Positions 3,222 to 25,580 of a stretch of DNA of 64,000 nt are shown here, in pieces. Source of the DNA: Azospirillum cavernae (GTDB lineage: Bacteria; Pseudomonadota; Alphaproteobacteria; Azospirillales; Azospirillaceae); the NCBI RefSeq assembly GCF_003590795.1, contig NZ_QYUL01000001.1, forward strand, positions 1,877,001 through 1,941,000, written 5' to 3'. The notes under the pieces were generated by a model. It worked only from the letters and a program-made list of their open reading frames with translations. It had not been told where the DNA came from and searched no databases. Position numbers and translations under genes: made by a program. Within the stretch, counting starts at the first letter, position 1. Every line of letters starts with the position of its first letter.

Positions 3222-3240
3222 CGGCGCGTCTCCACCACGC

Positions 3241-3549
3241 TTATTCCGGGCAACGGTCAACGTCGTTGCTGACGAAGGTGTCGGACAGCGCGCCCGCGCG
3301 GTCCGCGACCTTCAGCGACAGTTTCACCCGATGGGTTGTCGTTCCTCCCACTTTCCCCCCCAGCTTGCCGCCAAGGCCGAGAACCTGGAAGCTGAGATCG
3401 CCGTTGCTGCCAACCTCGCAAGCCACCGCAAGCTCAAGGTCGATGGCTTCAACCTTGAAGCGGAGATCTTCCCCATCCCCCTGCGTGATCGCTTCGGCGA
3501 GTTCGGCCCGCAGGGATTTGATCGCATGAGCCAAACCGATTTTCGCCAT
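3241..3549 (-). CDS. Trypco2-domain protein (trypsin co-occurring domain 2)
   Basis: A 102-residue single-domain protein. An N-terminal helix (AHAIKSLRAELAEAI) is followed by strands LRFKVEAIDLELAVACEV and LSFQVLGLGGKLG and a closing THRVKLSLKV strand. This is the layout of the Trypco2 family, small proteins typically encoded next to trypsin-like proteases of bacterial conflict systems. It is the first gene of a four-gene minus-strand operon and ends 20 bases before the protease start. It likely helps regulate or recruit the protease, but no enzymatic residue is visible. The family assignment rests on pattern and context. Confidence 0.8.
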   Translation of the reverse strand: MAKIGLAHAIKSLRAELAEAITQGDGEDLRFKVEAIDLELAVACEVGSNGDLSFQVLGLGGKLGGKVGGTTTHRVKLSLKVADRAGALSDTFVSNDVDRCPE

Positions 3550-9058: not shown

Positions 9059-9946
9059 TCATGTCTGAAGTCGGGCACACCGAAAGCCAAAGGGGCCATC
9101 GCGTACATCTGGAAGGTACCAAACGCGGTTCGCGGCGCGTGCAAAACTTGCTTTGCCCTTCCAGGCCCCGCCGCGAAGGACACGTTTAGCGTCGGGGTTG
9201 ACCAGGCCACGCGGATTGGTTTCCGACTGCGTCGTGTAGTCACGCCGTCCATCGGCGCACCATTCCAAGACGTTCCCCAGCGTGTCGTGCAGGCCCCAGG
9301 GATTCGGGCGCTTGCGGGCGACGGGACGAGTCCCGGCTGTCTCATGCGGGTGCTGCTTCTCCGGCCAGCCCGTGCTGTCCTCGCCATTGTCCAGATCGAA
9401 GCCAACCCCGCTGTTCCCGCCATACCACGCGATCGGGTCCAGCGCCGGAGCATTCCGTTCGCCCAGGATTGCGATGTCGCCGCTGTAGAGCGCTGTCGTG
9501 GTACCGGCCCGGCAGGCGTGTTCCCATTGCGCCTCCGTCGGCAGCGTCAGATCAAGCCCCGGAACCCGCCCGTTGATCCGGGTCAGAAAATTCTGGGCGT
9601 CGTTCCAACTCACCGTTTCCACCGGTCGGTCGGGCGACTTGAAACGACTTGGGTTCTCGCCCATCACCGCTTGCCACAGCGCCTGCGTGCAGGGCGTGTC
9701 GAACAGCCAATAGCCACGGCTGAGCGTCACCGCGTGCTGCGGACCTTCATTGTCAAAGCGTCCCGGTTCATCCTCCGGCGATCCCATCAGGAACCGGCCG
9801 GGCGGGATCCAGCGCAGACGCTGGGTCACGTCCGCCACCGTTACGGCGACGAACACGCCGTAACGGTCCTGGCCCCATTCGCTCGCCCAATCCGGCGGGT
9901 TGCCATCGGCCAGGGGATGCCAGCCCTTGTCGATGACGGCGCTCAT
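9059..9946 (-). CDS. FGE/C-lectin-fold protein (SUMF1-like), putative DGR target
   Basis: A 295-residue protein; start at 9946 overlaps the stop of the 53-aa ORF (ATGA). It is a whole FGE-sulfatase domain: VTQRLRWIPPGRFLMGSPED, GYWLFDTPCTQALWQAVMG, PTEAQWEHACRAGT, WGLHDTLGNVLEWCADG and a C-terminal RGGAW...GFRCARL. Catalytic FGE needs an active-site Cys in the RGGSFLC-type loop; here the loop is RGGAWKGKAS, so formylglycine synthesis is unlikely. The C-terminal pattern (GG-A/S-W-x3-A-x3-R-x-A-x-R-x4-P-x2-R-x4-GFR) is that of DGR variable proteins, implying ligand binding. It is a paralogue, of identical length, of 17090-17977. Confidence 0.85.
   Translation of the reverse strand: MSAVIDKGWHPLADGNPPDWASEWGQDRYGVFVAVTVADVTQRLRWIPPGRFLMGSPEDEPGRFDNEGPQHAVTLSRGYWLFDTPCTQALWQAVMGENPSRFKSPDRPVETVSWNDAQNFLTRINGRVPGLDLTLPTEAQWEHACRAGTTTALYSGDIAILGERNAPALDPIAWYGGNSGVGFDLDNGEDSTGWPEKQHPHETAGTRPVARKRPNPWGLHDTLGNVLEWCADGRRDYTTQSETNPRGLVNPDAKRVLRGGAWKGKASFARAANRVWYLPDVRDGPFGFRCARLQT
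9089..9163 (-). other. DGR-type variable region 1 (C-terminus of FGE protein)
   Basis: The region encodes GGAW to GFRCARL. Framework residues match the other four copies, while residues between them differ. Several framework codons also differ (GCA for GCG/GCC), so this copy looks older or less active than those at 17121 and 18337. Confidence 0.5.
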
Positions 9947-10104
9947 GACGCGACGCCCGACAACAGAGGCGACCAACCGGCGAGCCGTCGCCAGGGTTCC
10001 ACCCAGGCCACCCGCGCACCGAAAGCCAATGGTGGAGTTGTGGCCATCCGGGTGGCGGCCTCGTCGCCGCCATGGACCGGGATGGTGAAGAAACGCAGTT
10101 GCAT
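9943..10104 (-). CDS. 53-aa ORF beginning like a DGR accessory protein, probably a deletion remnant
   Basis: The frame starts at 10104 with GAGGTGA upstream and reads MQLRFFTIPVHGGDEAA before becoming Arg/Pro-rich; it stops in an ATGA overlap with the FGE gene. The opening resembles small proteins encoded between variable target genes and reverse transcriptases in DGR loci (from memory, not searched). In the +1 frame the same DNA encodes HPDGHNSTIGFRCAG, a variable-region end. The ORF therefore looks like a fusion of an accessory-gene start to a VR or TR remnant. An identical arrangement occurs at 17974-18135. It may survive mainly to couple translation of the FGE gene. Confidence 0.5.
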   Translation of the reverse strand: MQLRFFTIPVHGGDEAATRMATTPPLAFGARVAWVEPWRRLAGWSPLLSGVAS

Positions 10105-10206: not shown

Positions 10207-13200
10207 TCACGCCTGAACTCGGACGCACCGAAAGCCAAAGTTGCCGAAGCGGTCAACCGGGAGGTTCCAATAGCGGCACGCAGCGCGGGCGATCCGCGCG
10301 CGGTCCTTCCAGGACCCGCCGCGAAGGACCCGCTTGGCGCCGACGCTCTCCGGGCCTCGTGGGTCGGTTTCCGCCTCCGCACTGTAGTCCCGTTGCCCAT
10401 CGGCACACCATTCCCACACATTGCCGTGCATCTCGTACAGCCCCCACGCGTTGGGCGGCAGGCTCGCCACCGGGACCGTTTCTTTGCGGAAAAGCCCCTT
10501 GGCGTCGTCGGTATACGGATAATGGCCGTTATAATTGACCTGCTCCGGCGTGATGGCGACGCCGAAGCTGAAGGGCGTCGTCGTCCCGGCCCGACAGGCG
10601 TGTTCCCATTGCGCCTCCGTCGGCAGGCTCAACTCAAGCCCCGGTCGGCCCGCGTTGAGCCGCGTCAGGAAGCCCTGAACGTCGTTCCAACTGACGCTGT
10701 CCACCGGACGCCGGTCGTCGCCCGTGAGACGGCTGGGATTTTCGCCCATCACCGCCTGCCACAGCGCTTGGGTGCAGGCCGTGTCAAACAGCCAATAGCC
10801 CCGGCTGAGCGTCACCGCGTGCTGTGGGCCTTCATTGTCATTGCGCAACGGTTCATCCTCCGGCGATCCCATGAGGAACCGACACGGCGGGATCCAGCGC
10901 AGGCGCTGGGTGACGGAATCGCCACCGCCCTCCGGCTCCACCACGATTTCCGTCCACAGGCCGAAACGGTCGCGGCCCAGAGCGTCGGCCCAAGCGGGCC
11001 GGGTGATCCGTTCGACGCGCAGCTCCTCGCGATCCGTGCGGATGCGGACAACCGGAGCCTGGGGCCATGGGCAGCGGGCGCCCCCGCCGGTCCCGGACTC
11101 AACGCGCAGGACCGCTCTACCCACCGCCCCCCGCGTTCCCCGGCGCTCCGCCAGCCGAGGCAACGCCGGGGCCGTCGGCTCCGCTGCGCCTTCCGGGCTG
11201 GCTTGGCTCCCGGCCTGAACTCGGGCGCACCGAAAGCCAATGCGACTGTTGCGGAACCACGGTAGGAGATGATCGCGGCAGGCGACGCGGACGAGCACCG
11301 CACCGTTAAACCAAGATCCGCCGCGAAGGATGCGTTTGGCGTCGTAGCTGTTCGGGCCGCGTGGGTCGGTTTCAGGCCGGGCCGCGTAGTCCCGCACCCC
11401 ATCGGCGCACCATTCCCATAAGTTGCCCTGCATCTCATACAGTCCCCACGGGTTGGGCGGCAGGCTCCCCACTGGAACCGTTCGGGCGCGGTAAAGCCCC
11501 TTGGCGCCGTCAGCATACGGGAAATTGCCGTTATAATTGACCTGCTCCGGCGTGATGGTGGTCCCGAATCTGAAGGGCGTCGTCGTTCCGGCCCGGCAGG
11601 CGTACTCCCATTGCGCCTCCGTCGGCAAACCCAGAGCAAGCCCCGGAACTTGGTCGTTCAGCCGCGTCAGGAAGCCCTGTACGTCATTCCAACTGACGCT
11701 GTCCATCGGATGCCGGTCGTCGCCCGTGAAACGGCTGGGGTTCTTGCCCATCACCGCCCGCCACAGCGCTTGCGTGCAGGCCGTGTCAAACAGCCAATAG
11801 CCCCGGCTGAGCGTCACCTCATGCTGCGGGCCTTCGTCGGCCTTGCGCTCCGGCTCATCCTCCGGCGATCCCATCAGGAAGCGGCCCGGTGGAATCCAGC
11901 GCAGACGCTGGGTGACGCTTCCGACCGTGAACGTCACCCACGCCCCGAATTCGTCCCACCCCCAGTCCTGCGCCCAGGAGGGCGGTTTCCCGCTCTTCCA
12001 GAAGGCGTTGCGGTCGTCTTCGTCCTCCTCGACGAGTTGGATTTCGCCGTTGGCGGTGCGCAGGGTGGTCAGCGGGCTGCCTGGACCGTCACCGGGCGCC
12101 TGAAGGACCAGATCGTCGCCGATCTGGCGCAATTCGACACTGCGTTCCGGTTGTCCACCGTCTCCAAGCAGCCTTGGGTGGAAACCCGGCGGCGGCGGCG
12201 GGCGGTCGGCGGGGTCGGGGAATGCCTCGGCATACATACGGGACAGGGCGACGCACAGCGCCGTGTCCTCCCGACCTTGGACATCGGCCAGACCGCGCCG
12301 ACCAAACCGTCGGCCATAGGCAAGGCCGCCGGCATGGTCCGCCAGCGTCGGCAACACATCGATCGCGTGGCGGCGCGCCCAAGGCAGATCATGGTCGCGG
12401 ATGGCGGCGGGCAGAATCGCCGGGTCGAGCCGCAGCAGTTCCTCCATCCAGATTTCCCGCGCGAGACCGGCGCGGTGGCGGCGCAGCGCCTCGGCCACCG
12501 CCGGCGCCAGTTCCCGTTCCTGCTGATGGAAGACCGCGCGCCGCTTGGCGGCGATGTCGGGATCGAGGGCGCCAGCCACGCTCGACCGTCCGGTCAGCGC
12601 GCGGTGCTGCCACAGATCGGCCTCCGTCCCGGCGTCCGCCGCCGGGCCAAGCAGCCGACGGATGTCGCGCAGCAACGTCGGCTCCAGCCGGATGGCGGGC
12701 GACACCAGGGTCAGCAGCCGTTCGCTCCGCCCGGTCAAGGCGGCGGGATCGGACGGCGACGCCGCTCGACGGTCCCACTCCACCATCGTCCACCAGCGCG
12801 CCAGACCGGGCCGCCAGCGCGCCCGTGGGCAGGGGGTGACGGCAACCGCCCGGCAACCCGCCGCCGCCAGCCGCCGACCAAAGGCGATCCAGCGCGCGAC
12901 CAGCCGCTCTGGATTGCCCGCCAGACAGCCAAGGTCGCCCAGCACCACCACCAGCGTTCCCGACGGCGGCGGACGGTAGGACGCCGGATCGCCGCGCCGG
13001 TCGGTGAGCACCGGGTCGTCGAAACCGTCGAAGGCTGTCCCGCGCTCCACCCCATGGCCGGGAAACAGGCCGACCAGCCTGCTCTCCAGCCGGGCCTGAT
13101 CCTCGTAGAAGGGGACCAGACGCTCGCCGCGATCGGTGATGATCTGCACGCCCGCGCCCCAGCGCCGCCGCAACCGCCGAGGCAGATGATCGAGCAACGC

Positions 13201-13674
13201 GCCCTTGCCGACGCGGCGGAGCAGCACCGCGATGTCCGGCGCCTTGCCCGCCGTCCTGGCGGCGGCGGCGGCGCGCATCCAGGGCAGCAGCGCGTTCCAC
13301 GGGGCCAGATCGGTGTGGGCGGCGGGTTTGTCCCAGTCCGGCGGCGGCGGCGGCGGTGGGGGCGGCGGCGGCTCCGCCAAGCTGTTCAGGAACACCCGTT
13401 CCGTCGGTTGCCAGACCGGAAGTTCGGCCCGTGGCCTTTCGATGAACTCCAGGGGCGCCGCCGCCGGGGACGCCGCCGCCGGGGGGGGCGGTTGGGCGGT
13501 GGGGCGATCCTCCGGGACCCGGCGTGGCCCCGGCTGATAGCCGGTCAGCGCCGCGATCGCCGCCAAGCCCTGCTGTCCGCCGGTGGCATAACCGAGAAGG
13601 AGGTCGGCGTAGCCGCAAGCGCCCCGAGGCTGAGGCCGGGTCGGCGCTTTCATGGTGTGGCGGGAATCCGTCAT
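10207..13674 (-). CDS. vWA-like/SAV_2336-type protein with two FGE domains (module 2)
   Basis: A 1155-residue protein. Residues 18-45 form a helical start, about 100-120 a Pro-rich linker, 165-310 an IQVI/vWA-like region (GTLVVVLGDLGCLAG near 238), and 310-540 a helical region. FGE domain 1 spans about 575-810 and FGE domain 2 about 905-1155, each opening with VTQRLRWIPP and closing with a GGSW...GFRC element. Neither FGE loop has the catalytic cysteine (GGSWFNGAV; GGSWKDRAR). The gene begins 13 bases after the moxR stop and is followed by the 53-aa ORF and the FGE gene. In ternary conflict systems this protein would couple ligand recognition by the FGE folds to the MoxR switch; that mechanism is inferred. 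Confidence 0.85.
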   Translation of the reverse strand: MTDSRHTMKAPTRPQPRGACGYADLLLGYATGGQQGLAAIAALTGYQPGPRRVPEDRPTAQPPPPAAASPAAAPLEFIERPRAELPVWQPTERVFLNSLAEPPPPPPPPPPPDWDKPAAHTDLAPWNALLPWMRAAAAARTAGKAPDIAVLLRRVGKGALLDHLPRRLRRRWGAGVQIITDRGERLVPFYEDQARLESRLVGLFPGHGVERGTAFDGFDDPVLTDRRGDPASYRPPPSGTLVVVLGDLGCLAGNPERLVARWIAFGRRLAAAGCRAVAVTPCPRARWRPGLARWWTMVEWDRRAASPSDPAALTGRSERLLTLVSPAIRLEPTLLRDIRRLLGPAADAGTEADLWQHRALTGRSSVAGALDPDIAAKRRAVFHQQERELAPAVAEALRRHRAGLAREIWMEELLRLDPAILPAAIRDHDLPWARRHAIDVLPTLADHAGGLAYGRRFGRRGLADVQGREDTALCVALSRMYAEAFPDPADRPPPPPGFHPRLLGDGGQPERSVELRQIGDDLVLQAPGDGPGSPLTTLRTANGEIQLVEEDEDDRNAFWKSGKPPSWAQDWGWDEFGAWVTFTVGSVTQRLRWIPPGRFLMGSPEDEPERKADEGPQHEVTLSRGYWLFDTACTQALWRAVMGKNPSRFTGDDRHPMDSVSWNDVQGFLTRLNDQVPGLALGLPTEAQWEYACRAGTTTPFRFGTTITPEQVNYNGNFPYADGAKGLYRARTVPVGSLPPNPWGLYEMQGNLWEWCADGVRDYAARPETDPRGPNSYDAKRILRGGSWFNGAVLVRVACRDHLLPWFRNSRIGFRCARVQAGSQASPEGAAEPTAPALPRLAERRGTRGAVGRAVLRVESGTGGGARCPWPQAPVVRIRTDREELRVERITRPAWADALGRDRFGLWTEIVVEPEGGGDSVTQRLRWIPPCRFLMGSPEDEPLRNDNEGPQHAVTLSRGYWLFDTACTQALWQAVMGENPSRLTGDDRRPVDSVSWNDVQGFLTRLNAGRPGLELSLPTEAQWEHACRAGTTTPFSFGVAITPEQVNYNGHYPYTDDAKGLFRKETVPVASLPPNAWGLYEMHGNVWEWCADGQRDYSAEAETDPRGPESVGAKRVLRGGSWKDRARIARAACRYWNLPVDRFGNFGFRCVRVQA
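10236..10312 (-). other. DGR-type variable region 2 (C-terminal FGE domain of the large protein)
   Basis: The region encodes GGSWKDRARIARAACRYWNL to GFRCVRV. Compared with the copy at 17121, most differences are at codon positions 1 and 2 of NNC/NNT codons, as expected for adenine mutagenesis of AAC/AAT codons. Three third-position differences also exist. Confidence 0.6.
11239..11313 (-). other. variable-region-like segment 3 (internal FGE domain)
   Basis: The region encodes GGSWFNGAVLVRVACRDHLL to GFRCARVQA in the middle of the large protein. The framework is kept but synonymous and framework changes are common, so it is probably no longer being rewritten. Confidence 0.45.
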
Positions 13675-13686
13675 GGGCGCCCGGCG

Positions 13687-14670
13687 TCAAGCGGTCGTCA
13701 CGGAATCGGCCTGCTTGCGCAGGGTGTAATCCCGGATGACCGCCAGCATCTTGATGTGGTTGCGGGTCCCCCGCGCCATGCCGAGGACGGCGCGCAGCAG
13801 ATCAAGATACTCCGCCTGTCCGGGATATGGCCGGATTTGCTCGTGGATCGCCGCCGCCCGATCCGTGTGCAGCAGTTCGGCCGCTTTGCGCAGCAAGGCG
13901 ACGCTCGCCTGCGGAAAATGCGCCCGTCCGCGCGCGACGAGGAAGGCGGTCAAATCCTCCTTCGTCTCCGGTAGGCTGAGACGCAGAACCAGACAGCGGC
14001 GCAGGAAAGCGTCGGGCAGCACCCGCTCCTCGTTGGTGGTGATGACCACCAGGGGAGGGATCCCGGTGGCGCGCACCGGGCCGCGATGCCCGACCGGGGT
14101 GAATTCCCGCGCGCCCAAGGCTTCCAACAGCCCGTTGGGAACCTCGGCCTCCGCCTTGTCGATCTCGTCGAGCAGCAGGACGCAACCCTGCCGCCAATCC
14201 CCGTCGTCGGGCTGGGAGGGGCGCTCGGCCTGCGCCAACGCCGCCTGCGCCTCAGCGTTCGTCCAATCGAAGGCCCACCACAGCGGGCCGGGGTGCAGGA
14301 AACGTTCAACCGCCAGGTCAGACCGCGCCTTGGCGATGTCGTCGCGGAGCGCGCCGGCGAGTTGCGCCTCGGCCAGCCGTTTCACGGCGTCAAAGCTCCA
14401 CATCAGATCGCGGGATTCGGTGTGGGAGTCGATCACGTGCTTGACGAAGGCGCGCCCCAGCGCCGTAGCGGCGGCGCGCGCCAACTGGCTTTTGCCGACG
14501 CCGGGTTCGCCCCGCACCAGAAGGGGCCGCCCGGCGGTGATCGCCGCGTTGATCGCGTGGATCTCGCGCGCCCGGAGCAAATGGACCCGATCATCCTGGC
14601 CGCTCTGGCCGACGAGTTCGACCCGACGGACGGCGGTCGGAGATGCGGGGGCGGGGATGAGGTCGGTCAC
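13687..14670 (-). CDS. MoxR-family AAA+ ATPase (module 2)
   Basis: A 327-residue MoxR ATPase. Walker A is GEPGVGKS near residue 57, Walker B is CVLLLDEIDK near 166, followed by NGLLEALG and ITTNEERVLPDAFLRRC. It overlaps the phosphoesterase stop by ATGA, exactly as its module 1 paralogue overlaps the protease. The vWA/FGE gene follows after 13 bases. Likely role: an ATP-driven switch coupling recognition to the phosphoesterase effector. The two MoxR proteins share long identical stretches such as RLAEAQLAGALR and HPGPLWWAF/RPGPLWWAF, so the modules arose by duplication or recombination. Confidence 0.9.
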   Translation of the reverse strand: MTDLIPAPASPTAVRRVELVGQSGQDDRVHLLRAREIHAINAAITAGRPLLVRGEPGVGKSQLARAAATALGRAFVKHVIDSHTESRDLMWSFDAVKRLAEAQLAGALRDDIAKARSDLAVERFLHPGPLWWAFDWTNAEAQAALAQAERPSQPDDGDWRQGCVLLLDEIDKAEAEVPNGLLEALGAREFTPVGHRGPVRATGIPPLVVITTNEERVLPDAFLRRCLVLRLSLPETKEDLTAFLVARGRAHFPQASVALLRKAAELLHTDRAAAIHEQIRPYPGQAEYLDLLRAVLGMARGTRNHIKMLAVIRDYTLRKQADSVTTA

Positions 14671-16661
14671 GCGTCGTTGTCCTGGAAATCAAGAAGATGG
14701 CGGATGTTGTCAAACCGATCCTGATCACGAACCACGTCGCCAGCCAGTTTGATGACGCCCAATCCGGGATACGCGGTGGCGATCCGCTCCAGGAACTCTT
14801 CATCGTGGCCATCGCTGGCGTTGCAGATCATGAAGATTCTTGTTCCTTGCTTTTCAAGGAAGTACGCGATGCGTTTGCGGATCGACCCATCCTTTTCCGC
14901 ATCGGATTTGTCGAAAATCTCCGAAGAAACGCCAAGGCGTTTCATCAGATCGTGACGAACCGTATCGAGGTTCTTTTGACAAAAACCTTGCTCCGGCAAG
15001 TTGGATTCGGCGGCGTAGGAGGAGGATGGCCAGGCCAATGGATCCTTGACCGGGTGGAATTTGGGTTTGCGAACGTCAATTCCAGCCATGACAATCTCGG
15101 CAAAGCATTTCAACCCGGCGGGCAGCGGCAGAACGGCACCGATGTCGTTGTTTTCCCAGGGGCCGCAATCAACCGCATCGCTCACAACATGCAGCCAGGG
15201 CAACAGCCACGCACTGGTTTGCACAATGGCCCGGCGGGCGGAGGAGTCGCCACGGTGGCTTTTTTGGATGTTTTTGTAGGCCCGCGTCAGCCCATTCACC
15301 GCCTCGTCAAACGGAAGATTGTTCAGCAGATGATCGCGCAAACGCGCCGCCCGGTCGTCGGGCGCCCCCGTCGGCCCAGCAGGACCGGCGCTCGCCAAAC
15401 CAATCGCGGTCTCCAGCGCGCTCATGGCGGGGGGAGAGACCGCCAGAATGTCGGCCATCTCCTCCTTCATGTCTTGAAAGCGCTGCTCCCGCGACGGGGA
15501 TCGCGCATCGGCGGCGCCTTGAGCGCCCGCGCCGTCACCCTTGCGGGCCGGACCGACGTCGCCGCTCGGCGTGTCCCCTCCCCCAGGGTCGCCCGTCCCC
15601 TCGGTTGCGGTCGGCGACCGCGTCAGCCCCGCAGGCAAGGCGACGTCAAACCGCCCGTCCTCGCAACTGTCCGTGTCCTTGGCCCAGCGGGTCTTGCTGT
15701 CGTTCCAGCGACGCAGATGGACAACGCCGCGCCCGGCATCCAGATCGAGCGCCACGAAATTATAGGCGTTGGTGTAGCGCGGATTGTTGGCGACCCGCCC
15801 GTCGAAGGCCGCTCCCGCCGGCACGATGAGGCACTGCCCATCGGTGCCCATCTCGTGCCGAACCTGGGGGCGATGCTCATGGCCCCAGAGGATGATGTCG
15901 GCCTCGTCCTTGAGGCGCGATTCCACGCGGGCACGATCAAACTCCGCCAACCATTCAAACGCGTGATGCAGGACGACGATGCGCAGATCGCTGTCGGCGG
16001 TCGCGGCCAAGGCGTCATGAATCTGCGGTTCGCCGACCACAAGATGGCCATGGTCGCGCACTTGGCCATCCACCTTGTTGCGGGCGCACATCCAGGCCGA
16101 ATTGAAGCCCAGCAATGCCACCGACCGACCGGCGAGAGTCAGGCGCTTCACGCTGGCGTAAGCCGGGCTTAGTTGGCCGGTGTATTGGGTGACGAAGTCC
16201 GCATACGCGCGAAACGGCCGTAGCACGTGCCCGAGGCGTTCCGCATCGCCTAGCCATTTTTGGACGTCCGCGTCCTTGGTCAACGGCGCTTGGAGTTCCG
16301 CAGACAAGAAATCCTTGATCGCTCCCCGATCCAGGTCATGATTGCCGGGCACCAGAAACAGCCGGTCCGGCGACAAATTCAGAAGGTTCAGAAGCGGTTT
16401 GAACAGCTGGTCGCGGATCGCCGCCAATTCCGCTTCCGCGCCGTTGTGAGCGGCGTCGCCGCTGAACACGACGAAGTCAATCGACTCAAGGCGCGGATCA
16501 ATGCCGCTGCGGCTCTCGATATCCGCAAGCAGCTTGTCCCGCAAAACCTTCCGGTCGAAATTTACTCCACTCTGATGCCAATCGGACAAGTGCAGCCAGG
16601 AAATGTGGTTCATGGTCAGAAATGCGCCCAATTGGTACGTGGTGGACTCGATGATACTCAT
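14667..16661 (-). CDS. calcineurin-like metallophosphoesterase effector with conflict-system C-terminal domain
   Basis: 664 residues from 16661; an internal ATG at 16613 would remove 16 residues and cannot be excluded. The N-terminal 330 residues carry every metallophosphoesterase motif: SDWH, SGDAAHNG, PGNHD, VLHHAFEW and GHEHRP. A Gly/Asp-rich linker (about 345-390) leads to a C-terminal domain (about 395-664) homologous to that of the trypsin-like protein at 1791-3221. This domain probably docks onto MoxR/vWA partners, and the catalytic N-terminus is the swappable effector. The substrate is unknown; nucleic acid, nucleotide or protein phosphoesters are all possible. No signal peptide is seen. 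Confidence 0.85.
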   Translation of the reverse strand: MSIIESTTYQLGAFLTMNHISWLHLSDWHQSGVNFDRKVLRDKLLADIESRSGIDPRLESIDFVVFSGDAAHNGAEAELAAIRDQLFKPLLNLLNLSPDRLFLVPGNHDLDRGAIKDFLSAELQAPLTKDADVQKWLGDAERLGHVLRPFRAYADFVTQYTGQLSPAYASVKRLTLAGRSVALLGFNSAWMCARNKVDGQVRDHGHLVVGEPQIHDALAATADSDLRIVVLHHAFEWLAEFDRARVESRLKDEADIILWGHEHRPQVRHEMGTDGQCLIVPAGAAFDGRVANNPRYTNAYNFVALDLDAGRGVVHLRRWNDSKTRWAKDTDSCEDGRFDVALPAGLTRSPTATEGTGDPGGGDTPSGDVGPARKGDGAGAQGAADARSPSREQRFQDMKEEMADILAVSPPAMSALETAIGLASAGPAGPTGAPDDRAARLRDHLLNNLPFDEAVNGLTRAYKNIQKSHRGDSSARRAIVQTSAWLLPWLHVVSDAVDCGPWENNDIGAVLPLPAGLKCFAEIVMAGIDVRKPKFHPVKDPLAWPSSSYAAESNLPEQGFCQKNLDTVRHDLMKRLGVSSEIFDKSDAEKDGSIRKRIAYFLEKQGTRIFMICNASDGHDEEFLERIATAYPGLGVIKLAGDVVRDQDRFDNIRHLLDFQDNDA

Positions 16662-17089: not shown

Positions 17090-17977
17090 TCACGGTTGAA
17101 CTCGGGCGCACCGAAAGCCGATGAAGTCGTAGCGGTCATCCGGGTGGTACCGATTGCGGCACGCGGCGCGGGCGTACCGCGCGCTGTAGAACCAGGACCC
17201 ACCGCGAAGGACGCGCACGGCGACGGCGCTCTCCGGGCCGCGCGGGTCAGTTTCCGGCTGGGCCGTGTAGGTCCGTCGCCCTTCGGCGCACCATTCCCAG
17301 ACGTTCCCCAGCGTGTCGTGCAGGCCCCAGGGGTTCGGACGCTTGCGACCGACCGGACGCGTCCCCGCTGTCTCATGCGGGTGCTGCTTCTCCGGCCAGT
17401 CCGTGCTGTCCACGCCATTGTCCAGATCGAAGCCGACTCCGCTGTTCCCGCAATACCATGCGATCGGATCCAGCGCCGGGGCGTTGTTTTCGCCCAGGAT
17501 TGCGATGGCGCCGCTGTGCAGCGCCGTGGCGGTTCCCGCGCGGCAGGCGTGTTCCCATTGCGCCTCCGTCGGCAGCGCCAGATCAAGACCCGGAAGCCGA
17601 CCGTTGATCCGAGCCAGAAAATCCTGGACGTCGTTCCAACTCACCGTCTCCACCGGGCGGTCGGGCGACTTGAACTCGCTCGGGTTGGCGCCCATCACCG
17701 CCTGCCACAGCGCTTGCGTGCAAGGCGTGTCAAACAGCCAATAGCCCCGGCTGAGCGTCACCGCGTGCTGTGGGCCTTCATCGTCGTAGCGTCCCGGCTC
17801 ATCCTCCGGCGATCCCATCAGGAACCGGCCCGGCGGGATCCAGCGCAGACGCTGGGTGACGTCCGCGACCGTGAAGGCGACGAAGACGCCGTAGCGGTCC
17901 TGGCCCCATTCGCTGGCCCAATCCGGCGGGTTGCCGTCGGCCAGGGGATGCCAGCCCTTGTCGATGATGGGGGTCAT
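17090..17977 (-). CDS. FGE/C-lectin-fold protein (SUMF1-like), duplicated copy, putative DGR target
   Basis: A 295-residue paralogue of 9059-9946 with the same start context (ATGA overlap with a 53-aa ORF). It retains VTQRLRWIPPGRFLMGSPED, PTEAQWEHACRAGT and WGLHDTLGNVWEWCAEG. The C-terminus is RGGSWFYSARYARAACR...GFRCARV, again without the catalytic FGE cysteine. It lies in a duplicated block that includes upstream and downstream repeats. Ligand-binding lectin-like use is inferred. Confidence 0.85.
   Translation of the reverse strand: MTPIIDKGWHPLADGNPPDWASEWGQDRYGVFVAFTVADVTQRLRWIPPGRFLMGSPEDEPGRYDDEGPQHAVTLSRGYWLFDTPCTQALWQAVMGANPSEFKSPDRPVETVSWNDVQDFLARINGRLPGLDLALPTEAQWEHACRAGTATALHSGAIAILGENNAPALDPIAWYCGNSGVGFDLDNGVDSTDWPEKQHPHETAGTRPVGRKRPNPWGLHDTLGNVWEWCAEGRRTYTAQPETDPRGPESAVAVRVLRGGSWFYSARYARAACRNRYHPDDRYDFIGFRCARVQP
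17121..17230 (-). other. DGR-type variable region 4
   Basis: Between the GGSW tryptophan codon and GFR, this copy differs from the one at 18337 at 16 bases. All are at codon positions 1 or 2, none at position 3, and 15 of the 16 have coding-strand A in one copy. Framework codons between them are identical. Variable codons upstream of GGSW (ES-AV-A-V-RV versus ES-VF-A-E-RV) extend the pattern toward 17230. Confidence 0.75.
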
Positions 17978-18135
17978 GGTGCGACGCCCGGAAACAGAGG
18001 CGACCAACCGGCCGGCCGTCGCCAGGATTCCACCCCGGCCACCCGCGCGCCGAAAGCCAATGGTGGAGTTGCGGCCATCCGGGTGGCGGCCTCGTCGCCG
18101 CCATGAACCGGGATGGTGAAGAAACGCAGTTGCAT
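17974..18135 (-). CDS. 53-aa ORF beginning like a DGR accessory protein, duplicate
   Basis: It begins MQLRFFTIPVHGGDEAATR at 18135 behind GAGGTGATGGATC and ends in an ATGA overlap with the FGE gene. In the other frame it carries HPDGRNSTIGFRRAG, a variable-region end. It is the duplicate of 9943-10104, and both share the same junction, so the deletion that made it predates the duplication. Confidence 0.5.
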   Translation of the reverse strand: MQLRFFTIPVHGGDEAATRMAATPPLAFGARVAGVESWRRPAGWSPLFPGVAP

Positions 18136-18169
18136 GATCCATCACCTCACATCCGACAGCCCGGCAAAT

Positions 18170-18304
18170 CTTCCGCGCCCCTTGCTGGGGGCCTTGATAA
18201 TCCTCGTCCCCGACCGCGTCGGCGCTCTCGCCTCATGGCGCCCCGCCGCTCCGCTTGGGGCGACCAAGGGGCAAGCCCGCCGACGCCTCCCCCTGGCTTG
18301 CCTG
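18170..18304 (-). repeat. post-VR cassette behind the truncated FGE copy
   Basis: Immediately after the stop codon the minus strand reads GCAAGCCAGGGGGAGGC, then the complementary GGGCTTGCC, then CGCCCCAAGCGGAGCG. This is the same cassette as behind 17090. Confidence 0.6.
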
Positions 18305-18551
18305 TCACGCCTGAACTCGGGCGCACCGAAAGCCGACGTAGTCGCTGCGGCCAACCGGGGGGAACCGAAGGCGGCACGCGGCGCGGGCGCTCCGCGCGAA
18401 GTTGATCCAGGACCCGCCGCGAAGGACGCGCTCGGCGAAGACGCTCTCCTGGCCGCGCGGGTCGGTTTCCGGCTCCGCACTGTAGGTTCTTTTCCAATCG
18501 GCGCACCATTCCCACACATTGCCGTGCATCTCGTACAGCCCCCACGGAACG
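18305..18551 (-). pseudogene. FGE C-terminus truncated by an IS3-type element
   Basis: The frame encodes WGLYEMHGNVWEWCADW through GGSWINFARSARAACR...GFRCARVQA and stops at 18305. It matches the last 80 residues of the large protein at 10207, so it is the end of a duplicated vWA/FGE gene. It is cut at 18552 where an IS terminus (TGTCAACGATTATGAGAC) begins. Its 5' part is not found on the far side of the insertions, so it was deleted. An internal ATG at 18529 could give a 74-residue protein, but it is probably nonfunctional. Confidence 0.85.
18337..18420 (-). other. DGR-type variable region 5
   Basis: This is the partner of the 17121 copy in the 16-difference comparison. Codons such as ATC, AAC, TTC, AGC, CTT, CCC, GTT and GGC stand opposite TTC, TAC, AGC, TAC, AAT, CAC, GAT and GAC in the other copy, always with the third base unchanged. 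Confidence 0.75.
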
Positions 18552-18776
18552 TGTCAACGATTATGAGACGGGCCGATTTGCGATTTAGGCTTGGATGATT
18601 TCCGGCTTTTGGGGTGGATTGATCCAGGCTTCGATTGGCTTGGCGGGCGGTTCGGGCCTTTTGCGGACGAACCGTTCTGGATTGCTGCGAAAGACGCGGT
18701 CGAGGGTTTCCTGCCGGGCGGCATACACGGCGTCAGCTTGCCCGTAATGGACCTGATCGGGGGTCATCAAGCGGAT
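18552..18776 (-). mobile_element. IS3-family element remnant (transposase C-terminus)
   Basis: A reading frame ending at 18585 encodes RLMTPDQVHYGQADAVYAAR and a Pro-rich tail ending in AWINPPQKPE, the typical C-terminus of IS3-family (IS2-like) OrfB proteins. It starts abruptly at 18776 where a second IS3 element begins. Its terminal TGTCAACG abuts the FGE fragment. Confidence 0.8.
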
Positions 18777-18815
18777 GGAGTTGCCCTGGAAAAGAGGAGA
18801 GCCTTCGGCTTTTGG

Positions 18816-19129
18816 CTATGCGGCAGCCTCGAAATCGCATGGGCTTTTGTAGCCAAGCGCCGAATGTCGCCGCACAGGATTATAGAACCCGTCGATGTAG
18901 CGTCCAATGGAGATTTTAGCGGCTGATCTGGACAGGAAAATTGTTCTCCAGATAAGTTCAGCCTTCAGCGTCTTGAACACAGTTTCAACCATGGCGTTGT
19001 CGTAGCAATTCCCCTTTCCGCTCATTGATATGACAAAGCCGCCATCTTTCAGTATTTTCTGATAATCCGCAGAGCAATATTGGCTCCCACGATCCGAGTG
19101 ATGAACAACGTCCTTCGGGGGACGGTGCC
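18816..19129 (-). pseudogene. IS3 transposase OrfB, 3' part
   Basis: It encodes PPKDVVHHSDRGSQYCS, GNCYDNAMVETVFKTLK and a NPVRRHSALGYKSP end, the last two thirds of an rve integrase core including the second Asp and the Glu of the DDE triad. It is separated from its 5' half at 23122-23673 by the nested insertion. Confidence 0.9.
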
Positions 19130-19221
19130 TCACCATCCATCAGTTTACGAAAGAAAGCTATTGACGGCAGGAATCGGCGTGTGATTCGAAGAGTCCGCTT
19201 TGATTTTTGCGGACGGCGACG

Positions 19222-19512
19222 ATGGACGGGGTCACAGGTATCGCGGCTGGCATCGCCGTGGAGTTGCAGCGGCTTCTTCCCGATCAGCGCAAGACGCAGC
19301 GGGCGAATCTGGCGCTTCTGGTGGCGACGATGCTGGATGTCCGCAGCGCCAATCTGATGGCTCTGGCGGCCGGGCTTCTCCGCGATGTCGCGCGGATCGA
19401 CATGCGTTATCAATGGATTACACGGGTTCTGATGAACCGGCTGATCAATCCGGACGCAGTGATGGCCCCGTTCGCCCGCGAGGTTCTGTGCCGACTGAGC
19501 GATGACGGTCGT
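19222..19512 (+). pseudogene. IS4-family transposase, N-terminal part
   Basis: It encodes MDGVTGIAAGIAVELQRLL to PFAREVLCRLSDDGR, the helical N-terminal domain of IS4-family DDE transposases, and then runs into unrelated IS66 sequence. The first catalytic Asp segment is lost. Confidence 0.8.
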
Positions 19513-19542
19513 ATCGCTCCGGTGAGCGCCGCGAGGATGGTG

Positions 19543-19926
19543 CTATAGGGGATGCAAGATCCCATCGGTTTCCAAGATTTTCAAGGCTTCGGTCAGCGAC
19601 ACGTCGCGATAGAGGCAGTGCCACGTTCCGGTATGGCGGAACCATTGGATATCGAAGCGGTCGCGGCCCCTCCAGTCGAGGCGGGCGAACGGGCTGTCGA
19701 ACTCGTCCCCGAGGTTCTCTGGAAAGCCGGATCGATAGCGTTGCAGGAAGCGATAGCGGTTCCCGTGCCATTTGCCCGAGATGTCGATGGGATAGTTGAA
19801 CGCGGTCGGGCGGATGATTGGCAGGAACCGGGGCTTCAGCACCTCGTCGATGAAGTTCTGGCAGGCCGCAACGATGGCGGCCTTTTCGGAGTCCGATGGT
19901 CCGGCGGAGCGACGCGGAGACGTCAT
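19543..19926 (-). CDS. IS66-associated conserved hypothetical protein
   Basis: A 127-residue protein starting at 19926 in an ATGA overlap with the tnpC stop. It contains ACQNFIDEVLKPRFLPIIRP, a GNRYRFLQRYRSG segment and a DIQWFRHTGTWHCLYRDVSL segment. Similar short proteins are often encoded directly after IS66 tnpC genes; no function is known. Here it is part of the element rather than of the conflict island. Confidence 0.65.
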   Translation of the reverse strand: MTSPRRSAGPSDSEKAAIVAACQNFIDEVLKPRFLPIIRPTAFNYPIDISGKWHGNRYRFLQRYRSGFPENLGDEFDSPFARLDWRGRDRFDIQWFRHTGTWHCLYRDVSLTEALKILETDGILHPL

Positions 19927-21560
19927 GCGACAGCCTCCTTCAGCCCCGCCGCCGGCCGCCAGTTCCAGGGCAACAGGTCGTGGAGCCGGGTCTGTGGGAT
20001 GTCGGCGATGCGGGCGAGAACATCGGCGAGCCAGGCCTGGGGATCGACGTCGTTCATCTTGGCCGTGGCAATCAAGCCGTAGAGGATCGCCGCCCGCTGG
20101 CCGCCGTGATCGGAGCCGCAGAACAACCAGGCTTTCCGGCCCAGAGCGATGCCGCGCAGGGCGCGTTCGGCGGCGTTGTTGGTGAGGCACAGGCGGCCGT
20201 CGTGCAGGAAGCGGGTGAAGCCGTCCCACCGCTTGAGCATGTAGTCCATCGCCTTGGCGACGGGGGCATGGCGGGAAAGCCGGGTGCGTTCGGCCCGCAT
20301 CCAGGCTTCCAGTTCGGCCACCAGCGGGGCGCTCAGTTCAGTGCGCACGGCCAGCCGCCGGTCGGCCGGCAGCCCGTTGATCGCGCGCTCGATGTCGAAC
20401 AGCCGGTCGATCCGGGTCACCGCCTCCAGCGCCATCGGGGAGATGGGCGGGGCGTCCTTGCCGCGCCGGGCGGTGGCGGCGATGTCGGCCAGCACGAAGA
20501 ATTTCCGACGCGCATGCGCCCAGCAGAGGACGTCGCGCACCGGGCTGGGGGTGCGTCCAGGATCGTAGAGCCGGTTGTACCCGGCATAGGCGTCGGCCTG
20601 GAGGAGGCCGGTGAAGCCTTCCAGATGGCGTTCGGGATGCTCGCCCCGGCGATCCCGGGAATAATAGAACACCGCCGCCGGCGGGGCGGGGCCGCCGAAC
20701 GGCCGGTCGTCGCGGACGTAGACCCAGGCGCGCGCGGTGTCGGCCTTTCCCTTGGCCAGCACCGGCACGGTGGTGTCGTCGCCGTGCAGGCGTTCGGCCG
20801 CCAGGACATGCGCTTCCATCAGGTCATGCAACGGCTTCAGCGCCGCGCAGCCGGTTCCAACCTGGTCGGCCAGCGTCGACAGGCTCAGCGGGACGCCCTC
20901 ACGGGCGAAGCGCTCGGCCTGCCGGTTCAGCGGCTGATGTTGGCCGAATTTCTCGAACAAAATCATGGCCAGCAGGCTGGGACCGATCCAGCCGCGCGGA
21001 GTGACGTGGAACGGCGCCGGCGGCTGGCTGATCGTCGCGCAGGACCGGCAGGAGAACTCTTCCCGCACGGTCTGGATCACCTTCCACTGACGCGGGATGC
21101 TCTCCAGCGTTTCGGTGACGGTCTCGCCCAGCTTGCACAGTTTGTCCGAGCCGCAGCACGGACAGGTGGCGGGAGCCGGCACCACGACGCGCTCGCGCGG
21201 CAGATGCGCGGAGAACGGCTGGCGCGCGGGTTTCTTGCGGGGCAAGGCCGCCAGGGTGCGGGCCTTGGCCGCCGCCCGTTCGGCCGCCGCCTCGTCCTCG
21301 CTCGCCGTCGCCTCGAGCTCTTCGAGCTGAAGTTCCAGTTGGTCGAGCAGCCGGGTCTTGCGCTCGGAACGCTGCCCGTAAAGGTCCCGGCGCAGCTTTT
21401 CGATCTCCAGCTTCAGATGCGCGATCAGGGCGTCGGCGCCGGACGCTTTGGCCACCGCCCAGGCGGCTTCGGCTTCCGCCACGCAGGCCCGGGCCTCGGC
21501 CGCGGCCAAGGCGGTGCGCAGAGCGGCGATGTCGTCCGGGATGGCGTCCATGGCCGCCAT
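19923..21560 (-). CDS. IS66-family transposase TnpC
   Basis: 545 residues, the full family length. It has an N-terminal coiled coil (about 10-110), the CPCCGSDKLCKLGE zinc-binding segment, and a DDE core with LHGDDTTVPVLAKGK, QADAYAGYNRLY, CWAHARRKF and a C-terminal LTNNAAERALRGIALGRKAW (catalytic Glu). The C-terminal LHDLLPWNWRP is typical of the family. It appears intact. Confidence 0.93.
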   Translation of the reverse strand: MAAMDAIPDDIAALRTALAAAEARACVAEAEAAWAVAKASGADALIAHLKLEIEKLRRDLYGQRSERKTRLLDQLELQLEELEATASEDEAAAERAAAKARTLAALPRKKPARQPFSAHLPRERVVVPAPATCPCCGSDKLCKLGETVTETLESIPRQWKVIQTVREEFSCRSCATISQPPAPFHVTPRGWIGPSLLAMILFEKFGQHQPLNRQAERFAREGVPLSLSTLADQVGTGCAALKPLHDLMEAHVLAAERLHGDDTTVPVLAKGKADTARAWVYVRDDRPFGGPAPPAAVFYYSRDRRGEHPERHLEGFTGLLQADAYAGYNRLYDPGRTPSPVRDVLCWAHARRKFFVLADIAATARRGKDAPPISPMALEAVTRIDRLFDIERAINGLPADRRLAVRTELSAPLVAELEAWMRAERTRLSRHAPVAKAMDYMLKRWDGFTRFLHDGRLCLTNNAAERALRGIALGRKAWLFCGSDHGGQRAAILYGLIATAKMNDVDPQAWLADVLARIADIPQTRLHDLLPWNWRPAAGLKEAVA

Positions 21561-21631
21561 TTTACGATGAAACGGCCCAGAGTTGATGGCTTTCCGGCCT
21601 TGGACCCGCCGCCTGATTCATCGTGCCGCAG

Positions 21632-21982
21632 TCATCCGGCGGCTTCGGGACGCCAGGTCTTCTGGGGCAGGCGCCAGTCGATTCCTTCCAGGAGATAGCC
21701 CATCTGTCCCAGGCTGATCGCCACCACCCCGTCGGTCGGCGAGGGCCAGAGGAACCGGCCACGCTCCAGCCTCTTGGAAAACAGGCACATGCCTTGGCCG
21801 TCGTGCCAGATCACTTTGATCAGGTCACTGCGGTGCCCCCGGAAAATGAACAGATGCCCGCTGTGCGGATCGTGCCCGAGGACCTCCTGGACCTGGAGCG
21901 CCAGACCGGCCCAACCCCGGCGCATGTCCGAAAAGCCCGCCGCCAGCCACACCCGCGTTCCGGGCGCCGTCGGCGCCATCAC
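21632..21982 (-). CDS. IS66 accessory protein TnpB
   Basis: 116 residues with the classical TnpB signature GTRVWLAAGFSDMRRGWAGL, HLFIFRGHRSDLIKVIWHD and GMCLFSKRLERGRF. Required with TnpA and TnpC for transposition in the IS66 family. It overlaps the tnpA stop by four bases. Confidence 0.93.
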   Translation of the reverse strand: MMAPTAPGTRVWLAAGFSDMRRGWAGLALQVQEVLGHDPHSGHLFIFRGHRSDLIKVIWHDGQGMCLFSKRLERGRFLWPSPTDGVVAISLGQMGYLLEGIDWRLPQKTWRPEAAG

Positions 21983-22449
21983 GCCCCCAACACCAACAGA
22001 ACCCGCCGGAGCGCCTCGGCGTCGACATGGCGATCGACCCGCAGACGGTGCCCGCCCGACAGTTCGATCTCGATCACGCCCTCCGCCGGCACCGGCCCGC
22101 CCTCCACCGCGGCCGCCGGGGCCGGGATGGAGGGCGGAGCGATGGAAGCCTGCGTTGGCGGCGACAGCGCGACCGCCGCCACCTCTTCCTCCGTCCGGAC
22201 GACCACCGCTAGGAAGCTAGCCGGCGCCGCTTTGGACGTTCGCGTCCGGCCGCGCGTGACCAGCCCCTGCGATTGTCGACGCCACGTGTAGAGCAGGCCG
22301 GTGGAAATCCCGTAGCGCCGCGCCACCGCGCTGCCCGAGGATCCCGCCCGCTCCATCTCCGCCACGATCGCCAGCTTCTGGTCGACGCTCCAGCGCCGAC
22401 GCCGCTCCGGCCCCGGCAAAATCTCAGCCTTCGATACCGATCCCGTCAT
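21979..22449 (-). CDS. IS66 accessory protein TnpA
   Basis: 156 residues. The N-terminal helix-turn-helix includes RRRWSVDQKLAIVAEME, SGSAVARRYGIS and GLLYTWRRQ, followed by an Ala/Pro-rich linker and a C-terminal IEIELSGGHRLRVDRHVDAE segment. This is the DNA-binding first gene of the IS66 operon. Confidence 0.9.
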   Translation of the reverse strand: MTGSVSKAEILPGPERRRRWSVDQKLAIVAEMERAGSSGSAVARRYGISTGLLYTWRRQSQGLVTRGRTRTSKAAPASFLAVVVRTEEEVAAVALSPPTQASIAPPSIPAPAAAVEGGPVPAEGVIEIELSGGHRLRVDRHVDAEALRRVLLVLGA

Positions 22450-22540
22450 AAGTGCGCTCGTAAGAGGTGGTTCGCAAAAACACCCCAGACAAGACAGCGA
22501 ACCGCGATGCCTTCAAGGCGGCCCTCGCCGGATAGATACG

Positions 22541-22990
22541 GACCTTATCTCTTTGTGTCAGGAGCAAAATTGGGACTATCGCCTGCGGCTGAAAGGCAAT
22601 CTCGTTGTTCGCGACGGCGCTGAGCGGCACACCACCGGCGAACTGGCGGCTGCCCGCGTCTTCACTCTAGAGAACGTGCAATTGACGGCGAAGAAGGCGA
22701 CAACCAATATCGGCATCATCCACGACCCGGATCATGACGAGCCTTGGATCGTCGCCATACCGAGCGTGCCGGGCTATCTGAAAACACTGGATTATTCGAA
22801 CCGGTGGGCTATCGAGCCGATGTTCTCCGATTTCAAGTCGCGCGGCTTTGGCGTCGAAGACACCCAGATCCAGCGTCCCGACCGTCTCGCCCGCCTGTTG
22901 CTGGTGATGACGCTGGCGCTCTACACCGCCGTGTCGACCGGCCAATGGGACACAGAAACCAATCCGACACCCGCCGAAAAAAAGACCTGA
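22541..22990 (+). pseudogene. IS4-family transposase, C-terminal part
   Basis: It encodes CQEQNWDYRLRLKGNLVV through YSNRWAIEPMFSDFKSRGFG, the Tyr-Arg-Glu-Lys region containing the catalytic Glu of IS4 transposases, and LLLVMTLALYTAVSTGQWD. The sequence just upstream (22500-22540) is frameshifted relative to the expected LAGDRFYGT segment. Confidence 0.85.
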
Positions 22991-23121
22991 AGCACCGCCC
23001 GAAGAAGGTTGCACGCTCCAAAATGTCGCTCTTTACCAGAGGCTTGCGCTGCATCACACGCCTCATCCTCAACGCGCTGCCGTTGCCACCGCTCTGGAAA
23101 CAAAAAACTGATGGATGGTGA

Positions 23122-23673
23122 GGGACGGCGCAAAGCGATGGCTCTTCGCAGCGCGCTTATCGCCAAATCTTTCTTCATTCGGTCGCTCGTGGCCTAACCG
23201 ATGATCCGGCGGGAATGCAGATCCACCACGATGGCGAGATACAGCCAGCCTTCGGCGGTCCAGATGTAGGAGATGTCGGCTCCCCACTTTTAATTTGGCG
23301 AGGCAGCGCTGAAATCCTGATCCAGAACATTCGGCGCGACCGGGCCGCCATGGTCGCTGTCGGTCGTCTTCTTGTATCGTCTTTTTTGCAGCGCTTTCAT
23401 GCCGTTGTCCCGCATCAGGCGGGCGATGCGATGGCGACCGCCGCTCACACCGTCAGCCTTCAACTCAGCATGCATTCGAGGAGAGCCGTAGGTTTCATGC
23501 GATAGAGCAAAATGGTTTCGGATGTGAGCGAGCACGATCATGTCGTCGTATTGACGACGACTGGGTTGGCGACGTTTCCAGGCATAATATCCGCTCATGC
23601 TGACCCCAAAAAGACAGCAGCCGCGATGCACCGGTATTTCAGCTTTCTTCGCGTCGATGGCTTCATAAATCAT
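23122..23673 (-). pseudogene. IS3 transposase OrfB, 5' part
   Basis: It encodes the HTH_21-like start (VHRGCCLFGVSMSGYYAWKR), HETYGSPRMHAELKADG and the integrase-core start. A stop codon after DQDFSAASPN (near 23290) precedes [20 protein letters not shown], so this half is also internally damaged. The frame ends at the IS4 insertion. Confidence 0.85.
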
Positions 23674-23960
23674 CGACTTGTTTCCTTGGCGAAGAAGGCC
23701 GCCGCGTTTTTTAAGAGGTCCCGTTCCTGACGGAGAATTTTATTTTCAAGCCGAAGCCGTGTCAGTTCCTTTTGCACGTCGTCGTGAGGACCAGACAGAA
23801 CATCGGCCTCTTTGAATTGGGTTTTCCACCGCGTCAGCGTCGACTTGCCGATCCCCAGATCACCGGCGACCTGCGCCACAGTCCGACCGCTCGTCTCGGT
23901 CAGCCGCACCACTTCACGCTTGAACTCTTCCGTAACTTTCCGCTGTTTGGTTGGGCTCAT
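23670..23960 (-). CDS. IS3-family OrfA (HTH protein)
   Basis: 96 residues. EEFKREVVRLTETSGRTVAQ and VAGDLGIGKSTLTRWKTQ form the helix-turn-helix, and ELTRLRLENKILRQERDLLK is the leucine-zipper tail. It overlaps OrfB at its 3' end, as expected for programmed frameshifting. Intact, but its OrfB partner is broken. Confidence 0.9.
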   Translation of the reverse strand: MSPTKQRKVTEEFKREVVRLTETSGRTVAQVAGDLGIGKSTLTRWKTQFKEADVLSGPHDDVQKELTRLRLENKILRQERDLLKNAAAFFAKETSR

Positions 23961-24119
23961 GGAGGCCTCCTGATCCGCGTTGTTGTCTCAGAAGGCTCTC
24001 CACTTTTCCAGGGCAACTCCACTTCGGGGATAAGGCGCTGGGGTGGAAAGCTACTGGCCTGCCTGTGTGAATATAATGGTTGCGAACAGCGTGCTCTCCA
24101 ATCAGCTTTTAGAGTATTC

Positions 24120-24626: not shown

Positions 24627-25580
24627 CTAGATGCATTCGCCCTCAACAAGTCGCCGGTAGTGCTCCCCAAGGACGGTGAGCTTGCATGACTTGCTTTCCA
24701 TTGCCGCGTGATACATATGCGGAGCGCCAACAGGTACCAGGAGATTTACCCTGTTGTATTTCTGGAGTACCGCAAACTTTTCCGTGTTGCTAGGGTTCGG
24801 GCAATCGCTTTCAGGCTCGTAGGTGGGGTCAAGTGGGAACTCAAAACCAGGCGTGGGAAAGAGTTCGGTAAAGCGGTGGAGGTCGGCCAAGCTGATCGGC
24901 GCTTGGACCTTACGAAGGGAAACGAAGCTTTTGACGTTAGTCTTGAAAACGGGGCGCTGTTGCCAGGGTCCTAGAGACTGGTCGATGTGAGCATAAACGG
25001 AACCTGGAGTAACGTCGCCGACCAAATTCCCTGCCGCTCCGCTAAGGGCATCCACGAACAAGTTTGTGAATACGCCTGCGCCATTCTTCTCGCTGGCATA
25101 TTGCTCCGCTGTCGAAGCAGTAAGAATGGTTATACCCTCGGACAAATCGGCGTGCTTCTGATTACTCAGGTCGTTACCAGCGCATCCCGAGTGGCAACTG
25201 TCTAAGACGACAATCCGGTTGCGCGCGGGCGATCTGTTTGCTAGCGTCATCACTTCGGCCAATGCCAAACCATCATCGCCAGCTTTGCAATCACTCGCGC
25301 ATAGGTAGCCACCCGTGGTCTCTATGTAACCATGGCCAGCAAAATACAGTAGCGCGGTTTCTATTTGGTCTGCAAAGAGTTCGCGCACGGCTTCCTTCAG
25401 CTGTGTTCTTGTGATCGCGTCATCAGAGCCGGTTCCCGTGAGGATCTTCACCCCGAAATTGACCGTGCCGTCACTGTTTCGTTCAAGCACGCTCTTAACG
25501 CTGTGAGCATCGTTCACACACCCGTGGAGGCCGGAAATGTACTGATAATAGTCAACTCCGATAATGAGTGCTTTACGCAT
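24627..25580 (-). CDS. caspase-like (peptidase C14) effector protease
   Basis: 317 residues. The N-terminal caspase fold includes [13 protein letters not shown], the catalytic His83 in LLYFAGHGY, and Cys129 in [10 protein letters not shown], followed by [14 protein letters not shown] and [13 protein letters not shown]. The last ~120 residues (from [10 protein letters not shown]) are an unassigned domain, perhaps the ligand sensor, with a conserved-looking [20 protein letters not shown] segment. It starts three bases after the stop of the TIR-like gene and ends 18 bases before the TIR gene. Likely role: abortive-infection protease triggered by a TIR-derived nucleotide signal. Confidence 0.85.

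Follow-up and report, generated by a model that had tools for sequence, protein, structure and literature searches.

We analysed a 64,000-nucleotide stretch of the Azospirillum cavernae genome (contig NZ_QYUL01000001.1, positions 1,877,001 to 1,941,000), hereafter the window. It encodes an array of MoxR-type ATPases and FGE-fold sensors. We conclude that this array was very probably written by a diversity-generating retroelement (DGR). The cassette responsible, comprising an HRDC gene, a reverse transcriptase (RT) gene and a template, appears to have since been deleted, leaving a fixed repertoire. Briefly, an AAC-rich template RNA would have been copied by the error-prone RT, with randomisation of its adenines. 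The cDNA would have replaced the sensor 3' ends, corresponding to the final ~100 bases of each FGE domain. The HRDC-RT-template cassette, between the double-FGE and FGE-only sensor genes, would then have been lost by two deletions. Measured on the related species Azospirillum griseum, these would have removed ~1.56 kb and, across an 8-base repeat, about 90 bases. The resulting scar would now be present twice and, with no other DGR found in the genome, the sensors would constitute a fixed repertoire.

The adenine signature is found in two variable repeats on the minus strand. The first (c94, 17097 to 17203) lies in FGE-only sensor gene B and the second (c95, 18312 to 18418) in a truncated double-FGE sensor gene. 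An initial annotation of the window had noted 16 differences between the copies at 17121–17195 and 18337–18406, none at third codon positions and 15 involving A. Our recount agrees. Between the GGSW tryptophan and GFR, 16 bases differ; seven are at first, nine at second and none at third codon positions. In 15 cases one copy has A, and the sixteenth is G versus T. The copies were also described as otherwise identical. This holds within those limits, but outside them there are eight more differences in the 24 codons through GGSW and one downstream. Consistent with more than ordinary divergence, as had been claimed, third-position differences between c94 and c95 number 0 in 31 variable codons and 10 in the 40 codons directly upstream.

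We inferred the template from the c94/c95 pair, with AAC or AAT at each variable codon, and searched 82 genomes of the family. The best match (95% over 107 of 107 bases) was in another member of the genus, A. griseum L-25-5 w-1 (scaffold 32; genome G016, locus L087). The c94 repeat departs from the A. griseum template at 11 of 25 A's and c95 at 16 of 25, with 0 of 70 other bases changed in each. Taken together, 27 of 50 A's are changed versus 0 of 140 other bases (Fisher's test, 2e-19). Because both repeats match the template at every non-A base, the sixteenth (G/T) site must also be a template A. Hence, 16 of the 16 pair differences fall at template A's. These data support the initial proposal of adenine mutagenesis by a DGR, since the predicted template was located in A. 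griseum beside a DGR-type RT.

Alternatively, with no retroelement involved, a lectin-like binding face under positive selection could accumulate amino-acid changes only. The variable codons do sit between FGE motif residues, and residues in these intervals vary in ordinary FGE proteins too. However, selection does not erase silent differences (third positions 0/31 compared to 10/40 upstream). Nor would it confine changes to the template A's of another species (0/140 at non-A bases). On these two counts positive selection alone is ruled out for c94 and c95, and as an account of the array we consider it extremely improbable. It is possible that selection was an added force in older copies.

The A. 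griseum cassette is full-length. It has the order HRDC (PF00570), RT and template, and lies between double-FGE and FGE-only sensor genes. The RT has 339 amino acids, its start overlaps the HRDC stop and it contains the motifs GLPIGALTSQ and YMDD. The top sequence match in the PDB is 8ub7, which we take to be the DGR RT of a Bordetella phage. As a query, the A. griseum RT matched 17 plasmid records; in two of these (40% and 37% identity) the matching gene is annotated as avd, 'diversity-generating retroelement protein'. Two short contigs in a viral collection have an RT match at 63%; these were used only for the motif list. An Rfam scan of the A. griseum locus gave no match at the gathering threshold. 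The plasmid search for close relatives returned no close strain; its one match, of 197 bases, is in A. lipoferum 4B.

Neither of the two components that the initial annotation had proposed to look for genome-wide, a DGR RT and an A-rich homologue of the repeats, was found in A. cavernae; both were located in A. griseum. The A. cavernae genome (6.46 Mb, nine contigs) is rated 100% complete and is not closed. Family profile and protein searches of it found no DGR RT. The sole RVT_1 match is a UG17 defence RT (L001 1249–2607, contig C3), which was also all that the A. griseum RT retrieved as query, at 24% identity. We rejected this gene as the missing DGR RT. It matches the PADLOC UG17 model (2e-138) and has the motif GIPQGLSISN, not GLPIG..(S/T)SQ. 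The genome also yielded no template repeat; at E<1e-3 every match falls in an FGE copy or in one of two deletion scars, with weaker short matches (E≥0.15) left out. The seven FGE copies were themselves rejected as templates, each being within an FGE frame and having 0 to 2 Asn in the repeat, versus eight in the A. griseum template. Among accessory genes, HRDC is reduced to its first 17 codons, twice, and Avd was not searched for. Hence, A. cavernae retains A-only variable repeats (c94 and c95), while template, DGR RT and an intact HRDC accessory gene were not found. This combination, A-changed targets with missing or broken machinery, is the mark of a degenerate DGR with leftover targets. The view that the sensors are presently hypervariable is not supported by these searches. 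Because the genome yields no DGR RT, no template and only scars, the repertoire appears to be frozen, provided that the unassembled part holds no RT.

The two scars, A (9946 to 10104) and B (17977 to 18135), are on the minus strand and 8 kb apart. Each occupies the place of the cassette in A. griseum. Both contain HRDC codons 1–17, with 100% identity to the A. griseum HRDC gene. There follow ~40 bases resembling the template end (or a variable repeat) and then post-template DNA, joined across the 8-base repeat CGGTGCGC. The junctions are near 10054/10053 and 10014 in scar A, and near 18085/18084 and 18045 in scar B. Because the scars have both junctions in common, there was probably one deletion, later duplicated or copied. 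No match spanning more than 61 bases of the scar (172 bases) was found in the other 44 genomes of the genus; a few short, weak matches cross the scar junction (22–50 bases, E 5e-4 to 9e-4). Each scar leaves a 53-amino-acid frame from the HRDC start (10104–9943 and 18135–17974, minus strand). The TGA of this frame overlaps the ATG of the following FGE-only sensor gene (ATGA). Possibly, the scar frame keeps the FGE-only gene translated by coupling.

In the bodies of the FGE-only genes, 36 of 204 third positions are different between A. cavernae and A. griseum. Despite this, c94 and c95 agree with the A. griseum template at all non-A bases. This favours a scenario, partly overlapping with ours, whereby recombination brought in the sensors of the window, or their ends, from a strain resembling A. 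griseum in which they had already been diversified. Conversely, the scars show that the cassette was formerly at this place. Furthermore, the scar occurs twice in the genome of A. cavernae itself, and the other genomes of the genus match at most 61 of its 172 bases. We consider such acquisition unlikely. Between the scar-bearing genes A and B there are differences at 44 of the 204 third positions, and at 20 first and second positions together. If the shared scar predates their split, both genes would have been under purifying selection after the deletion. In gene B, the third positions of c94 all agree with the A. griseum template wherever the template base is not A. Either c94 was rewritten in trans, after loss of the cis cassette, or the repeat or scar was moved by recombination. 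We infer that c94 and c95 were last written shortly before the final loss.

Several observations weigh against a DGR having written the array and then been deleted. First, the absence of machinery is judged from a nine-contig assembly that carries a 100% completeness rating and is not closed. Second, the ~40 scar bases match the A. griseum variable repeat and template equally (86% each), and so may have a variable-repeat origin. This remnant also departs from the A. griseum template at several bases, both A's and others. Third, a stem-loop is expected after the repeats, on the model of the Bordetella phage DGR (PMC3240598). Among 12 sequences, a 7–8 bp stem is common to c94, c95 and A. griseum g10936. 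The stem is marginal, with 49, 14 and 13 of 500 shuffles, respectively, being as good. A. griseum g7058 has a different 8-bp stem (52 of 500) and, for the other eight sequences, 167 to 430 of 500 shuffles are as good. Fourth, not all FGE copies resemble c94 and c95. Five had been listed, which is correct for the window; the genome has seven C-termini of this type, on one strand within ~21 kb, two of them (c75 and c74) just upstream. Of 70 non-A bases in the A. griseum template, five are changed in c87 and five in c75. The signature is weak in c74, c86 and c88, with 13, 16 and 15 such changes, respectively. In pairs involving the copies at 9089 and 11239, third-position changes are about as frequent as those at first and second positions. 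Compared to each other, these two copies differ at 13 first, 12 second and 14 third positions. The initial annotation had regarded third-position changes at this frequency in further copies as evidence against a DGR. For these two copies they do count as such, and the signature is clean for the c94/c95 pair only. Our reading is that the copies at 9089 and 11239 are older, decayed targets.

Template-like repeats (E≤1e-4) were detected in nine genomes of the family. Seven, A. griseum and A. cavernae among them, were examined, and G046 and G049, with short or weak matches, were left out. A PF00078 search of 41 relatives proved too blunt, missing the split RT of G006; hence, the genomes were searched with the A. 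griseum RT protein. With the HRDC protein as query, HRDC domains were matched in 81 of the 82 genomes, mostly at 27–45% identity, and a match is informative only when it includes the N-terminus. The RT of G006 (L090 2354–3423) occupies two frames, with a shift near residue 270 and TMDD instead of YMDD. In G071 the first half of RT is missing. G055 has an HRDC stub of 38–39 amino acids and no RT above 30% identity. The template of G056, ~230 bases from a contig end, has no adjoining RT, and no RT above 31% identity was found elsewhere. G042, rated 93% complete, has repeats and no RT match at E≤0.001. Repeats were then compared with their own template at nine template-bearing loci (L170, L174, L177, L181 and L188 were left out). 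The G056 repeat has 0 of 60 non-A bases changed. For the three G006 repeats compared, the counts are 1, 3 and 16 of 61. The G071 repeats are nearly clean at third positions (0, 0 and 1 of 27 changed), with changes at 7, 5 and 9 of 68 non-A bases. Several losses look recent, because some repeats have kept a clean match to their own template; these genomes are drafts and some breaks may be assembly faults. The repeat at the template position of G071 (L094 8772) itself has few Asn codons, as would be seen if the template had been overwritten by a variable repeat.

A tentative generalisation, which we think possible rather than probable, is diversification followed by freezing. In Azospirillaceae the mutator would be lost repeatedly, soon after use, and the repertoire kept by purifying selection. 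In A. cavernae, deletion of the cis cassette would have been followed by rewriting in trans and then by loss of the last copy.

We also surveyed 44 MoxR loci of named records. Many are cut by contig ends, and a missing RT match was not counted as loss. A nearly full-length RT is beside HRDC in nine of the 44 (L155, L158, L170, L174, L176, L177, L188, L190 and L193). One more, L181, has an HRDC-RT pair with an internal deletion. An HRDC stub with no RT match in the stretch examined occurs in L171, L178, L182 and L191; that of L180 is at a contig end. Behind the stubs of L171 (10262 on; Chromatiaceae metagenome-assembled genome ppb02) and L191 (13949 on; Lamprocystis purpurea) another frame occupies the place of RT. 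This frame presumably encodes a REP-associated transposase. For 16 of the 34 loci with no RT match in the stretch examined, the genome was searched; these genomes come with no completeness figures. An RT match elsewhere (E≤1e-8) was found in 11 of the 16, and eight of these 11 have at least one RT with the DGR-type motif (S/T)SQ. Hence, an RT missing locally need not mean loss.

This bears on whether a DGR still acts on A. cavernae sensors in trans, from an RT and template on an unassembled contig or on a plasmid that the assembly lacks. Thiohalocapsa offers a published case of trans action (PMC10907252), and c94 and c95 may postdate scar formation. However, the nine contigs have a completeness of 100, the RT search yields UG17 alone and no template was found. 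We consider continued activity very unlikely, and retain the view that the writer has been lost.

We read the cluster as several MoxR-ATPase / FGE-fold (C-type lectin) sensor systems accompanied by effector genes. The genes of these systems are all on the minus strand. FGE-only gene B (17090 to 17977) is an open frame with PF03781, its start codon placed. FGE-only gene A (9059 to 9946) includes the decayed variable repeat c86 (9066–9172), in which 16 of 25 template A's are changed, as are 16 of the 70 other bases. The double-FGE sensor gene (10207 to 13674) has two PF03781 stretches, with repeats c87 (10214–10320) and c88 (11216–11322), and encodes an N-terminal extension. Next are the MoxR-type AAA ATPase gene (13687 to 14670; AAA_5 7e-12; bpMoxR 6.3e-6, 25.8 bits versus a cut-off of 27) and a gene for a metallophosphoesterase, a likely effector (14667 to 16661; PF00149). 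The anti-phage models NF053861 and NF053862 match the latter, far under their cut-offs. A second system begins with the 5' part of a double-FGE sensor gene (1 to 831), whose repeats c75 and c74 are upstream of the window (L033). Its MoxR-type ATPase gene (832 to 1794), recognised by translation, has 69% DNA identity over 801 bases to the MoxR-bearing stretch of the A. griseum locus. The likely effector of this system is a trypsin-like peptidase (1791 to 3260; PF13365, 27.7 bits versus a cut-off of 27.6). For the c95 sensor, homology to other sensors ends at 18546–18548, adjoining insertion-sequence DNA. The insertion-sequence cluster (18549–23987) abuts the cut-off end of this third sensor gene. 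It contains an IS66 transposase (19923–21560), an integrase-core fragment (18816–19136) and frames that are IS3-like by eye. A caspase-domain protein (24627–25580; PF00656, 6e-17) is encoded near the sensor cluster. Sequence relatives in the PDB of an FGE protein from the window include Treponema denticola TvpA (2y3c) and ordinary FGE enzymes. The proteins are putative sensors of invaders.

A link to MoxR-vWA conflict systems had been suggested. A MoxR-type ATPase does adjoin the sensors, but vWA was not detected in the N-terminal extension (12201–13674), which matches no Pfam family at E≤0.1 and no NCBIfam family at E≤0.01. VMAP was not among the families listed by the domain scans of window proteins. 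In the available text of PMC7159879, Azospirillum is named among hosts of MoxR-vWA ternary conflict systems. As described there, these share MoxR ATPases, FGE (FGS) domains related to TvpA, effectors and a DGR link with the A. cavernae cluster; they differ in vWA and VMAP, not detected here, and in the mutator, not found here. The layout fits better with clade 5A of PMC10907252, which has MoxR, a target whose N-terminal extension lacks a known domain and a short lectin-only target. This likeness is one of layout, the A. griseum RT not having been placed on a tree. Thiohalocapsa DGR 8, of this clade, likewise combines MoxR, A changes at first and second codon positions and degenerate loci. The degenerate Thiohalocapsa loci lack RT or template, some having been replaced by repeats. 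In contrast to the A. cavernae genome, where no DGR RT or template was found, Thiohalocapsa keeps one complete locus per DGR class. Its authors suggest that such loci sense antigens and act upstream of cell-death effectors, which they say has yet to be tested. In T. denticola, according to the sections of PMC4891356 at hand, the HRDC gene also overlaps the RT gene and the target is of TvpA type. Some isolates have A-changed targets and neither RT nor template, which the authors interpret as remnants of a loss. Unlike here, 62% of T. denticola targets are predicted lipoproteins, HRDC is flanked by template and RT (in A. griseum, RT is flanked by HRDC and template) and those sections describe no deletion scar. 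The portion of PMC8144416 at hand contains nothing on DGR loss. Hence, leftover DGR targets are known already, from T. denticola and Thiohalocapsa. What the present data add is a scar defined at base level, together with hints that loss has recurred in Azospirillaceae.

An untested proposal (PMC10907252) is that DGR-written sensors next to MoxR ATPases amount to adaptive immunity in bacteria. Arrays such as that of A. cavernae are overlooked by searches that start from RT. The scar supplies a base-level event for loss of the writer. Written sensors without a writer, set against a sister species with both writer and template, provide a natural experiment. The contrast separates the worth of a fixed receptor set from that of ongoing diversification.
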